Assembly: GCA_029881255.1 (NCBI GenBank)
Contig: JAOUMY010000001.1
Location: 1 to 64,000 of the forward strand
DNA: 64,000 nt
Reading direction: 5' to 3'
Origin: Gammaproteobacteria bacterium
GTDB lineage: Bacteria > Pseudomonadota > Gammaproteobacteria > S012-40
A program made the position numbers and the translations under genes. Below the pieces are notes generated by a model. That model saw only the letters and a list, made by a program, of their open reading frames with translations. It made no database searches and was not told the DNA's origin. Positions 13,153 through 20,376 of this stretch are shown piece after piece. The first letter of the stretch is position 1. Each line of letters opens with the position of its first letter.

Positions 13153-14838
13153 ATGTCTGTCAAAGTCTGGTCCGTGTTGTCGGGATTCATTTTTGCCACT
13201 AATTCGGCATACGCCGTCGACCAATACACGGTCACAGATCTCGGTCCGCTATTAGAGACCAACGCTAAGCTACAACAGGACGACGAACAGAAACTCAAGT
13301 TTGATATCAATAACAACGGCGTCGTGGTGGGCACTTACCGAGTCCCTACACCGGGTGGTTTCAAGGCCTTTGTTTGGGACAGCAGCAATGGCCGCCAGGA
13401 TTTGAACACGGATTCCACGCGCCAGGATGAGGCGCGGGGCATAAACGATGTCGGGCAAGTCGTCGGTTGGGCCAGGGTTGGGACTAACAATGTCACAGTA
13501 ATGTGGACGCAAAATCCTGATCTCAGCTGGAGCGAAACCTTTCCTGCCATCGTCGGACAAATCAGCGGCAAGGCCACAGCGATCGACAATAGCGGCAATA
13601 TCGTCGGTACTTACACCGATAGCAGTAATCAAAAACACGGCTTTGTCTGGTCCAGTAGTACGAATTCACCTCACGCCCTAAGCGACAGTGTCGCCGAGCT
13701 TGCCGAAGACACGAATAATGGATTTGTTGTCGGCACCTCACTTATCGATTCAATCGACCGTGCCATATTCACCAGAGCAGTAAACGACAATATACCGTTA
13801 GGCAGTTTGAACAACAGCGGTTTTGCAAGCTACGGCACTGCACTCAACGCAAACGGCGACGTCGTCGGCGGGGGATTTACCGATGCAAATTCCTGCACGC
13901 GTTTTTGTTTTGGCGTGGCCCATGCCTATCTCTGGCAACAGGCGACGGGTATTCTAGACCTGATGCCGAACGATCCGGCTACCTCCTGGGCAAATGACAT
14001 TAATGACAGCGGCCAGATCGTCGGCTGGCGTTTGCGCCTGCCTACCAGTATTGCCGTGCTATGGCAGGATAGTATCGCCATCAATCTGAATCCGATCACC
14101 GCAAACCTGGGCGATTGGCATTTGGAAAGAGCCCACGCCATAAACAACGGTGGACAGATCGTTGGTATAGGCAAGAAAAGCGGTATCTTGAGTGCTTTTG
14201 TACTGACGCCGACGGGCATCACCAGCAGTAGCGATCTGGCCGTAGCAATTCTGCCCACGCCATCCGGCAAACCACATAGACGCGCTCAGACGTCAACGCC
14301 CACAACCCGTTTCAGTATTATCAATCGCGGCCCTGACGTTGCGCCCAATATCGTTGTTAACGCCACCATACCGCAGGATATGCGTGTCGATGCGATCAAT
14401 ATTTCCGCTGGTAACTGCGAAATTCAAACTGACGTCCAGTGCACGCTCAACTCACTTGGCGTTGGCGAAAGCCTGACCGTTGACGTAACCCTCGGCGCAA
14501 ACGTCGCCGCAGAATACGAAATCGAGATTAGCGCCAGCGGCGACAACATCGATAGCGGTCCGACGCCGAACAACTCGGCCACGCTAAAGATTAGCCTGCC
14601 GGCCAGCACGCCATCGATCACCAGTAGCGATCCTGAAACAAGTAGCGAAATCTACAGTGGAAATGACTCTGCGGAGGCAGACGCTAGCGGAACAGCGCAA
14701 AGTCCCAGTGGTGGGTTTGGGTGTGCAGCAACAAGAAACGGTGACATCGATCCATTGCTGCCATTTTTACTATTTGCAGGGCTGATTTATTTGAATACCA
14801 ACTCTCGTCGACGCGAAAAAAACGCTATTCGGTCTTGA
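13153..14838 (+). CDS. Secreted HAF-repeat / DUF11 protein with C-terminal sorting-like tail
   Basis: 561 residues. A Sec signal peptide (cleavage after SAYA, about residue 22) is followed by about seven HAF-type repeats, each with a D/A-IN-x-x-G-x-(I/V)VG core (for example [30 protein letters not shown]), to about residue 350. A DUF11/CARDB-like beta domain spans about 360-480 ([16 protein letters not shown]), then a Ser/Ala-rich spacer, and finally GGFGCAA, a hydrophobic segment and the basic tail NSRRREK. That ending resembles tripartite surface-sorting signals of the GlyGly-CTERM, MYXO-CTERM or JDVT-CTERM kinds, so surface attachment after processing is likely. It ends convergently over the last 14 bp of the chemoreceptor gene. 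Binding partner unknown. Confidence 0.85.
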
Positions 14839-16449: not shown

Positions 16450-16476
16450 AAAAAAAAGCGTCGCATGATGCGACGC
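16450..16476 (-). terminator. Rho-independent terminator after the decaheme gene
   Basis: GCGTCGCA-TGA-TGCGACGC at 16458-16476 is a perfect 8 bp stem; read on the minus strand it is followed by eight T residues (A-run at 16450-16457). It lies 38 bp downstream of the stop of the multiheme lipoprotein gene. Confidence 0.9.
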
Positions 16477-16513
16477 CCGGCAGAAAAGTTTTCAACCCCT
16501 GGATATCGTTAAT

Positions 16514-19500
16514 CTAGAAAGGCAATGTCGCCGAATTGCTGACCCAGATGCTGTACTGGGTATTGGCTTGATCGACTAACATTTGCTTCCAGGCAATATA
16601 GGTTGCGCCCATGGGCGTGACCGCTATATCCGGCGCAACGGTGTATCCATTCACATTCAGTTGATTGACTACCACAGGCTGAGGCGCAGAAGCCCAGCCT
16701 ATTTGTGGCGTGTAGTGTTTGGTGTAAAGAACGCTTTGGCCTGTTACATCACTTACCCATGCAGCGATTGCCTCACCGTTAGGGCGCATTAACAATGTGG
16801 GATCAGACTCGTAATTTTCATTGAGATTACCCAAGCGAGCAGCAGGCTCCCAGTTCCCCAGCATCGGACTGAAGCGACTGGAATACACGTTATAACGCGG
16901 ACCACTCAATCCCTGGCTTTGCCCCTGCACCCACACAGCCATTGCTTCGCCCTGCACGTTGGAAACGATCTTCGGCTTGCCAGACAATGTGTTTGGCAGA
17001 GAAATCAGGTTTTGCCAGCCAAACGGATTGTTTGGCGCATAGGCATAGAGCCCGCTGTCATTAAACCCGACTACACCATTGATACCCGCGATTGCAAACA
17101 CCTGTCCCTGACCAGTGGCAGCGATATCCAGTGAAATCGGTACCGTAACCTGGACCGGTAACTGTGGTAATGCTTTGTCCTGACTCCATCCAGTCGCCTG
17201 AGTGAAATCGTTAACATAAACATACAGAGTCATACCGCCCGAACTGTTATTTAACAACTCCTGGCGCGCGATAAAAACGCGGCCCTGAGCATCGACTACG
17301 GGTCGACTGAACTGTGCCGAGTCGCTGACTTCGAGGGTACGGGTTTCACCCCAGATGGTACCGCTACGATAGACTCGCGCATTGAGATTGATCTGATTTG
17401 GTCCAGACGGTCTGCGCCAAACCGCAGTAAGCACTTCATTATTCAACAACAGATAGTATTGACCGTCGACCGCGCCTACACGCGTTGGCGCCGTCCATGT
17501 ACCTTGATTCGTGCCTTCACTGAAGAACAGCTCGCCCTGCTTGCTCCACAAGGCATAGGTGTTTCCGGTCAACTGCGATACCTGAATCTGCACCATGCTC
17601 GCATTCAACATTTCTGCGCGTGGCGCGGGCAGTTTTTCACGCCAGGCCGTGCCTTCAGAAGAATAATAGACATGGTTTTCGCCCAGCTCGTAGCGCCCGG
17701 TAAATCCGTTAAATTGCGAATGCTTCACCAGCGACAAATAGAGATTGTTATCGGTCACCTTTAGTTGTGGCCCGTGAACATAATCATTGCTGCTGTTAAC
17801 TGTGGTGCTCGACCACACACTGACCGGCATCGACCAGTTACCCGTCGGCCCCGAGTTGATCGGCGTGCCACCTATCGCTGGAAACCATGCCTGTACCGTG
17901 TGGCACTGTTCGCATTGATTGGATGAAGCAATATGATTCGGACTCTTTCCTGTAGACGTTACACCGTTGTGACACTGGAAACATGAACCCAATGCCTGGT
18001 TGTGATCAAACATGATCGCGGGTATCCACATTGTTGTGGAGTGACAGGCTTCGCATACATCCGTGGTTTGTAAATGCGCGATGGATTTACCCATCGCCAC
18101 AAAGTTGTTGTGACAGCTGCTACAGCTACCGATAACTTGCGAGTGATCCACGACTTGTACTGTAGGCGAACCACCAATGTGGCAACTAAAGCATTGGTTG
18201 GTCGCCGGAATATGATTGGCCGGACGAGGCGTGGTTGGCGTAATCACTCCCACAGGTGTGCCCGGTTGCGTGGTTGTCGTAAACCAGTTCAACGTGCTAT
18301 GACACTGCGCGCACTGGTTCGATGACGGAATATGGAAGGCGCTCTTACCTGTTGCCAACACACCGTTATGACAGCTCTCACAGGTACCGACGACTTGTGC
18401 GTGATCGACCTTGATCGCTGGCACCCACGCCGTCGTCATGTGACAGCTGGCGCAGAAACTCGTGGTCGGCAAATGACTGACGCTCTTGAAGTGACAGGAC
18501 TCACACGGACCGATGACTTGCGTGTGATCGACAATCACAGAACCGGTTTGAAAATGACAGGCGTTGCATTGATTTGTCGATGCGATATGTCCAGGTGGTT
18601 TTGGCTGTGTTGGATTGATAGGCGACGGTGTAATAATCGAACCTGGCCCACCGAGTTTGCCCGCGAAAAACATTTCGTATAACACAGCCTGCGCAGTTCG
18701 GTTGGCTTTTCTCCAGGTGATGACCGGCGAGTTGCCGCGCAGAGCAAGATCGGGCTCTTCCGCTACAACAACAGGACCGGGATAAGTGGTTACCAGTTCC
18801 GGAACATTCCAACCGGTGTTAGCCATAAAGTGCGCCGTAAACAATTCGCTGGTCTGCGGCGAGTTCTCTACCCAGGCAAGTGTCATCTCGCCGACGCTAT
18901 CCACCACAGCATCAAGACTGTTTAAATAAGTAGGTATCTGATTTCCAGGCGCGGTACCGATGGGACCACGAAAAACCGGTGCGCTAACCGCTTCCGGTGG
19001 CGTCCATCCCTGCATCGGGATATAACGGCTGACATAAATAAGAGAATAGGTGTTGATATTGTCACGTTGTTCTTCCACCCACGCGACTACCGCATCACCA
19101 CGCGCATTGCTTGCAAGCGCGAAGGGTTCTAATTGGGTACGATCGTTATTGAACAGATTGTCATCAATGTTCTGTCCGGTAGACCAGAAGCTTTGTTGAA
19201 AATCATAAGCGAACAAACCATCACCACTGATCGCGTCTGTCACATGCACAACCATTTGCGCCATGCCCGGCTGACCTGAAGTGACCAACTCCAAACCGGC
19301 AATGAGCTCTGAACCCAATGGCATAGGTGGACGCGCAACAATCACGTTACTCCAGCCAAACGAGGAAAGCGTCGCGCTATAAATACCGCGTGATGCGCTG
19401 ATTTCTTCCTGCCATGCAAGGAGTATCTGGCCACTGGCATCCATTTGCGGACGCGTGGAACTCACGAAACTACCGTTGCGCGTCAAGGTGAACACCTGAG

Positions 19501-20158
19501 ACCAGATATTCGATGTCTGATATCGTTTCGCCTCGATCACAAATTGATTGATTCCAGTCTCTCTCACCCACATGGCGGCTGCGCCACCCTGGGCGTTTCT
19601 GACTATCCAGGCCTGTTTGCCTTGTCCCAGCAAAACAGGTTGGCTCCAGCGTGTGACTGCGGAATAAACGCTGGCATAAATACTTTGATTCTGAACCCAG
19701 ACGGCGTAAGCCTGTCCGGAAACATTGTCTGTTACGATATCAGGCAGCGTGGAAAAAGACTGTTGCAGTGGAGGGACGGGTGACTCCGGTTGCCATGCAC
19801 CAAAACTACCCTTGGTTAGCACGGCGGTAACACCGCCCATGTATTGTCCGGTGAAGGGATTGAGATCGGTATGTGTGCGCCAGCGTACGAAGGTGCTGCC
19901 ATTCGCACTGGTGGAAACCATCGGTCCGTGAAAAAAGCCAGTGGCGGCATTTTGCAAAGAAGCAGTTCCAATTAACTCGGGAATCGTCCACGACTCAATA
20001 GTGCGTGCCCGTATTTTTGCGCGACTTTCCAGCGAGTTGTTTTCGCTTTCTTTCTGGTTTGAATTTCCTGGTGCGACAACTTCTCCGCAACCACTGAACA
20101 AGCTGAACGCCAACAAGAAAGTCAGCACACACGCCAGAGCAGATCTGTTACTCCGCAT
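16514..20158 (-). CDS. Decaheme c-type cytochrome lipoprotein with two beta-rich domains
   Basis: 1214 residues from the ATG at 20158, which has GGAGGGG about 6 bp upstream; a TTG five codons earlier is less likely. The signal peptide ends in FSGC, a lipobox, so the protein is lipid-anchored outside the cytoplasm. Ten CxxCH haem-binding motifs lie between about residues 530 and 755, each preceded by a histidine exactly seven positions before the first Cys (H-x6-C-x2-C-H). The ten units form two A-B-A-B-A modules separated by a Thr/Pro-rich linker, A being H[IL]xxx and B being DHxQxxGxC. On both sides lie related beta-rich domains (about 50-505 and 770-1214) with repeated AVWVE/AVWVQ blades that look like beta-propellers. 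It is probably an extracellular or periplasmic electron carrier or haem-bearing scaffold. No partner porin or oxidase is in the window. Confidence 0.88.
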   Translation of the reverse strand: MRSNRSALACVLTFLLAFSLFSGCGEVVAPGNSNQKESENNSLESRAKIRARTIESWTIPELIGTASLQNAATGFFHGPMVSTSANGSTFVRWRTHTDLNPFTGQYMGGVTAVLTKGSFGAWQPESPVPPLQQSFSTLPDIVTDNVSGQAYAVWVQNQSIYASVYSAVTRWSQPVLLGQGKQAWIVRNAQGGAAAMWVRETGINQFVIEAKRYQTSNIWSQVFTLTRNGSFVSSTRPQMDASGQILLAWQEEISASRGIYSATLSSFGWSNVIVARPPMPLGSELIAGLELVTSGQPGMAQMVVHVTDAISGDGLFAYDFQQSFWSTGQNIDDNLFNNDRTQLEPFALASNARGDAVVAWVEEQRDNINTYSLIYVSRYIPMQGWTPPEAVSAPVFRGPIGTAPGNQIPTYLNSLDAVVDSVGEMTLAWVENSPQTSELFTAHFMANTGWNVPELVTTYPGPVVVAEEPDLALRGNSPVITWRKANRTAQAVLYEMFFAGKLGGPGSIITPSPINPTQPKPPGHIASTNQCNACHFQTGSVIVDHTQVIGPCESCHFKSVSHLPTTSFCASCHMTTAWVPAIKVDHAQVVGTCESCHNGVLATGKSAFHIPSSNQCAQCHSTLNWFTTTTQPGTPVGVITPTTPRPANHIPATNQCFSCHIGGSPTVQVVDHSQVIGSCSSCHNNFVAMGKSIAHLQTTDVCEACHSTTMWIPAIMFDHNQALGSCFQCHNGVTSTGKSPNHIASSNQCEQCHTVQAWFPAIGGTPINSGPTGNWSMPVSVWSSTTVNSSNDYVHGPQLKVTDNNLYLSLVKHSQFNGFTGRYELGENHVYYSSEGTAWREKLPAPRAEMLNASMVQIQVSQLTGNTYALWSKQGELFFSEGTNQGTWTAPTRVGAVDGQYYLLLNNEVLTAVWRRPSGPNQINLNARVYRSGTIWGETRTLEVSDSAQFSRPVVDAQGRVFIARQELLNNSSGGMTLYVYVNDFTQATGWSQDKALPQLPVQVTVPISLDIAATGQGQVFAIAGINGVVGFNDSGLYAYAPNNPFGWQNLISLPNTLSGKPKIVSNVQGEAMAVWVQGQSQGLSGPRYNVYSSRFSPMLGNWEPAARLGNLNENYESDPTLLMRPNGEAIAAWVSDVTGQSVLYTKHYTPQIGWASAPQPVVVNQLNVNGYTVAPDIAVTPMGATYIAWKQMLVDQANTQYSIWVSNSATLPF

Positions 20159-20376
20159 GATTCCCCTCCACAACCCACATACTTATAAATTATTCGAACC
20201 AGACAATATTTTCCCGATCCAATACTGTCCATGCGTGGGGCCATAGTGATGGAGGTCAATGAAATCTTGCTGAACTGAAACAGTTTTTAGTCTGAAATGC
20301 AGTAACTTAGACTGTGTTATTTGACACAAGCGTGAAATGAAAATGAATAATAAGTGTATCTATTTTAAATAGCGCT

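Follow-up and report, generated by a model that had tools for sequence, protein, structure and literature searches.

A lipoprotein with ten haems between two beta-propellers, probably an outer-membrane electron-transfer protein, in a gammaproteobacterial genome

The window analysed here, i.e., the first 64,000 nucleotides of contig JAOUMY010000001.1 of a gammaproteobacterial assembly (GCA_029881255.1), contains on its reverse strand an open reading frame (16514..20158) that can be aligned with its orthologues and codes for a lipoprotein of 1,214 amino acids with a propeller-decahaem-propeller layout. Its ATG codon, at 20158, is preceded by a Shine-Dalgarno sequence, GGAGGGG (20163..20169, reverse strand). 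Residues 1-24 (20087..20158, reverse strand) form a signal peptide ending in the lipobox LFSGC, as judged from the sequence, its orthologues and its paralogues; Cys24 is the predicted lipidated residue and is followed by Gly at position +2. The lipobox cysteine is kept in both orthologues, and all the propeller-haem paralogues described below have a lipobox of their own. Bacterial lipoproteins are expected to have such a signal peptide, in which the lipobox ends in Cys, and the first-pass annotation, which had described the protein as one of them, is borne out on this point. Besides Cys24, the only cysteines are Cys10, in the signal peptide, and those of the haem motifs.

A strong intrinsic terminator, GGGCGTCGCATCATGCGACGC, followed by a T run, is found 3′ of the gene (16456..16478, reverse strand), and 218 bases separate the gene from pyrC, the gene upstream. 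Because of this gap and of the terminator, the gene is likely monocistronic, as had been proposed together with the terminator; in the region 5′ of the gene, no promoter site scored above shuffled expectation. The neighbours of the gene are pyrC and an MCP gene, while the orthologues sit in other contexts, so the neighbourhood is not conserved, a point against the functional reading that we prefer below. Elsewhere in the window (13153-14838, forward strand), there is a 561-residue secreted protein with repeated G-x-x-AF-W units, whose C-terminal tail of Gly, hydrophobic and Arg residues resembles a sorting signal.

The ten CXXCH motifs lie between residues 531 and 749, distributed in two pentahaem modules. 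Module 1 (residues 524-630; 18269..18589, reverse strand) has its motifs at residues 531, 552, 569, 593 and 616, and is also recognised by Pfam Cytochrome_C7 (PF14522), with 36.3 bits against a gathering cut-off of 24.8. Module 2 (residues 649-762; 17873..18214, reverse strand; motifs at 656, 679, 702, 726 and 749) was delimited by alignment with module 1, from which it is separated by a Thr/Pro/Gly-rich linker (residues 631-646; 18221..18268, reverse strand). The modules can be aligned over all five haems, with 60 of 104 residues identical, and most haems of module 1 (haem n) have their closest, or almost closest, match in haem n+5 of module 2. Similarly, in an orthologue with 14 haems, haem n tends to pair with haem n+7, including an odd 17-residue unit found at position 4 of each module. 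These pairings indicate a block duplication of the haem module, in agreement with the duplicated pentahaem modules that had been described at first. The haem region contains exactly 20 histidines, 10 of them in CXXCH motifs, a count that is consistent with bis-His coordination of all ten haems; the orthologue with ten haems likewise has 20, and the others have two His per haem (within one). The haem repeat is the same as that of the giant cytochromes of this genome, but its spacing of about 24 residues per haem is observed inside the modules only, against about 119 over the mature protein.

The haem modules are flanked by two large beta-rich domains. The N-terminal one (residues about 57-505; 18644..19990, reverse strand) is a beta-propeller according to AlphaFold2 and Foldseek, and has eight W-x-x-P/AWV units. 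The C-terminal one (residues 775-1214; 16517..17836, reverse strand) is assigned to the same fold by sequence homology, and is beta-rich in a low-confidence model of the whole protein. Self-alignment, which had been suggested as a check, leaves little doubt about their relationship: BLASTP aligns the halves over 450 residues (134 bits, E 7e-39, 25% identity), Smith-Waterman alignment scores 356 against 44 ± 6 for shuffled sequences (n=300, maximum 72) and 42 for the reversed one, and hhalign, with profiles made from the three orthologues for each propeller, gives a probability of 99.9 (E 1.5e-32) over 426 columns. Furthermore, the motif pairs that had been named at first align column for column. 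Consequently, the initial description of a cytochrome embedded between two related beta-rich halves, with shared motifs in the same order, has stood well.

The model of the N-terminal half, built from six propeller rows (from the window and loci L046 and L047), has a pLDDT of 84.9 and a pTM of 0.85, and is almost wholly beta, with four-strand repeats. This model and its Foldseek matches, which are propellers (PHL lectin, PL24 lyases, sialidases and fungal fucose lectins), agree with the radial four-stranded blades that characterise the fold. The TM-scores of these matches are modest, which may be due to differences in the number of blades. The best match, the PHL lectin of Photorhabdus asymbiotica (6fhx; E 1.3e-9), shares with our domain the beta-propeller fold, but the identity is 12% and the TM-scores are 0.45/0.58, and nothing in the comparison is evidence of sugar binding. 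As each half has eight W-x-x-P type motifs, each propeller would probably have eight blades. The full-length model, calculated from a three-row alignment without haem, is poor (pLDDT 54, pTM 0.41), as expected under those conditions; the haem region and the relative positions of the propellers cannot be placed, and the model was left out of the fold search for this reason. Searches of Pfam, NCBIfam and PDB sequences with the propeller identified no family: at the curated cut-offs of Pfam (NHL, BNR, WD40, PQQ and others) there was no match, and the best Pfam match over 11 propeller members had an E value of 0.0019, in one member each. Judged by these libraries, the propeller is thus an undescribed sequence family.

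Some enzymes combine propellers and cytochromes, such as cd1 nitrite reductase and the quinohaemoprotein dehydrogenases, and the top fold matches include sialidases and lyases; the protein might then be a redox enzyme, with an active site in one or both propellers, as in those enzymes or in lyase-like propellers, and with haems that carry electrons to or from it. The conservation of the propellers makes this improbable. Over 11 aligned propellers, the invariant residues are Trp and one Ala, with no cluster of catalytic type; the HGP motif is family wide but not invariant, its His being lost in several members; and no cofactor-binding family was matched. Another motif, TG-x-Y/F, is present in the propellers of all three two-propeller haem proteins (as SGQY in one) and missing from the propeller-haem paralogues.

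The search for relatives covered 56 relatives, a 13-genome family scan and two wider samples, of 369 genomes from the class and 398 from the phylum. Among all the sampled genomes, orthologues with the propeller-haem-propeller order were found in two MAGs only, both of other genera of the same family: the gammaproteobacterial MAG JAOUJM (1,322 residues, 7+7 haems) and the Hainich groundwater MAG H32-bin001-1 (CAKKRP; 1,275 residues, 10 haems). Outside the family, the architecture was seen in none of roughly 800 sampled genomes, and a single-sequence pattern scan of GTDB contigs gave no match; its absence elsewhere is unproven, as taxa were only sampled and the propeller diverges fast. The earlier statement that no family with this arrangement has been described holds for the libraries and open-access papers searched, but the arrangement is not unique to this protein, as both orthologues keep it.

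The other haem-bearing propellers of the same family belong to four propeller-haem lipoproteins, all in the same genome as our protein. One has 12 haems (9+3; L030, 7456-9912) and the others, with 14, 10 and 10 haems (11+3, 7+3 and 7+3), are encoded in tandem at L031 (6673-13933, reverse strand), a likely site of gene amplification. Their N-terminal propeller and haem modules are homologous to those described above (hhalign 99.8%), but they have no C-terminal propeller. In other members of the class, the propeller has distant relatives that are free of haem, many of them with a lipobox. This genome codes for haem-free lipoproteins with one propeller (L039), two (L129, 1034-4075, forward strand, with a lipobox) and three (L128, 1951-6534, forward strand, with a lipobox), and in the JAOUJM genome there is a haem-free protein of concatenated propellers of this family (two or three or more; L125, 2-4681, forward strand). 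As lipoproteins may carry one, two or three copies in the absence of haem, the propeller is a mix-and-match module and not an accessory of haem domains. The dominance of haem-free members in the class could suggest that the protein is mainly an adhesin or matrix protein, with structural or peroxide-protective haems. We consider this very improbable, since two genera show in-register duplication of the modules and have retained both the haem spacing and the putative bis-His ligands, and since the haem repeat is the one seen in the giant cytochromes.

Although both the propeller and the pentahaem module were duplicated, the first-pass proposal that the whole protein is a duplicated propeller-plus-pentahaem unit does not hold. 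A single tandem duplication of such a unit would produce the order propeller-haem-propeller-haem, and the observed propeller-haem-haem-propeller order cannot be obtained in this way. As the genome also codes for four propeller-haem paralogues and for propeller lipoproteins without haem, we favour instead an internal block duplication of the haem module together with a fusion that added the second propeller. In the propeller tree, the three C-terminal propellers cluster (94/96, not starred). A recent duplication of the propeller in this genome was rejected by forcing its own two propellers together (AU p 0.005); the same grouping is more weakly rejected for the JAOUJM orthologue (0.026) and not rejected for the Hainich one (0.073). 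From the cluster and from this rejection, the second propeller probably predates the split of the genera, although the branches of the tree are long and what they provide is support for an old layout, not proof.

The protein resembles, but does not belong to, several known systems. With MtrC/OmcA (TIGR03507) it shares the lipoprotein anchor, ten haems in a 5+5 distribution (bis-His in the known family and, here, predicted from 10 CXXCH motifs and 10 further His), two duplicated beta domains and an internal duplication. However, its beta domains are propellers, much larger than the split barrels of that family, and its order is propeller-5-5-propeller, while that of MtrC is beta-barrel-5 haem-beta-barrel-5 haem (PMC12304082). 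Membership was consequently rejected: the NCBIfam score is 17.6 bits against a cut-off of 209.3, the order differs, and the expected porin partner, MtrB/PioB (PF11854), is absent from the genome. The extracellular multihaem cytochromes of PCC3 systems (He et al. 2017, PMC5566968) have the same type of dihaem repeat, of roughly 47 residues. They differ from our protein, which has a lipobox and propellers, no adjoining porin, and 10 haems in about 1,190 residues, whereas they have whole-chain repeats at about 25 residues per haem. This candidate assignment was rejected too, on that spacing and because the gene, which in a PCC3 system would adjoin those of a porin, a periplasmic multihaem cytochrome and an inner-membrane protein, lies between the MCP gene and pyrC while the PCC3 cluster is on another contig (C8). 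Finally, propeller proteins and multihaem cytochromes are co-encoded in outer-membrane electron-transfer clusters in the Uet pathway of Tenderiales and Gallionella, where the undecahaem UetJ occurs with the NHL proteins UetHI (PMC10734462), and in the NHL/cytochrome clusters of Desulfovibrio ferrophilus (PMC9769857). In those systems, propeller and cytochrome are separate chains and, in ours, they are fused, with a propeller of a different family (no NHL match). Their union in one chain suggests a role for the propeller at the haem wire itself. No precedent for a propeller-fused multihaem cytochrome was found in the open-access literature searched.

The host genome offers a rich electron-transfer setting. 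Its PCC3-type porin-cytochrome cluster (L033, 3963-13153, contig C8) codes for a porin-like protein of 675 residues, cytochromes with 63 and 21 haems, and an inner-membrane protein of 296 residues in which HX13H occurs twice and SGxxG is also present, matching the published description (PMC5566968); the first HX13H is without the W of the published WX3HX13H. Over the loci examined, 16 multihaem cytochromes with 413 CXXCH motifs were counted, and single cytochromes have 66, 47, 42, 32, 27 and 26 haems. That with 66 is encoded by one open reading frame and has 1,665 residues (L032, 5414-10411, reverse strand) with no obvious porin adjoining. Another fusion of beta domains with multihaem regions is seen in two lipoproteins (L038, 6938-8701, and L034, 13883-15697, both on the reverse strand), with N-terminal PKD-like domains and 10 or 11 C-terminal haems. 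GspD (the type II secretin), CcmF and RuBisCO are also encoded.

With two duplicated pentahaem modules, two His per haem and a lipobox, an electron-transfer protein, as first proposed, is likely. Beyond this, we consider it probable that the protein is a decahaem lipoprotein of the outer membrane and that its propellers serve to dock the haem wire to a partner, docking or substrate binding being the best reading of these modules. In favour of this are the confident propeller model with its matches to lectins, sialidases and polysaccharide lyases, the haem-free occurrence of the propeller on other lipoproteins, and the PCC3 locus, multihaem cytochromes, GspD, CcmF and RuBisCO of the host. From its sequence, it would be exported by Sec, lipidated at Cys24 and, as there is Gly and no Asp at position +2, sorted to the outer membrane; haem would be loaded by the Ccm system, and type II secretion might then move it to the cell surface. 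A location on the inner leaflet, facing the periplasm, would fit the same sequence. The periplasmic side is the default one for lipoproteins of the outer membrane, and small decahaem modules suit a relay, so that the protein could store electrons or relay them between the inner membrane and the PCC3 periplasmic cytochrome, with propellers that bind envelope proteins or peptidoglycan. This relay seems rather unlikely to us, given the type II secretin and the surface-type cytochromes of this genome, and because the haem-free lipoproteins with two or three propellers look like surface binding proteins, although neither point is decisive.

Under the preferred reading, that of an outer-membrane protein docked by its propellers, the ten putative bis-His haems would act as a short wire or as a store of electrons, with one propeller near the lipid anchor and the other at the far end. 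The propellers would keep the wire in contact with a partner, which could be a giant cytochrome (of PCC3 or another), a mineral or a polymer of the matrix, and electrons would hop between outer-membrane conduits and this partner. Electron uptake, as in lithoautotrophy, is plausible, as RuBisCO is encoded. More tentatively, and with considerable doubt on our part, the protein could be a symmetric dumbbell, i.e., a distinct class of electron-transfer lipoprotein in which two docking heads and a haem wire bridge two partners, which may be cell and cell, cell and mineral or matrix, or two giant cytochromes.

If the dumbbell reading is true, the protein would be part of a larger family built by combination, where a single propeller module, as yet undescribed, is joined to haem modules or to other propellers. 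An organism that has a PCC3 conduit and no MtrB has seemingly arrived at the plan of MtrC/OmcA (an anchor, 5+5 haems and two related beta domains) by way of an unrelated beta fold and another domain order. In any case, the set found in this one genome (propeller, propeller-haem, propeller-haem-propeller, and two or three propellers) provides ready comparisons for assessing the part that these beta domains play in extracellular electron transfer.
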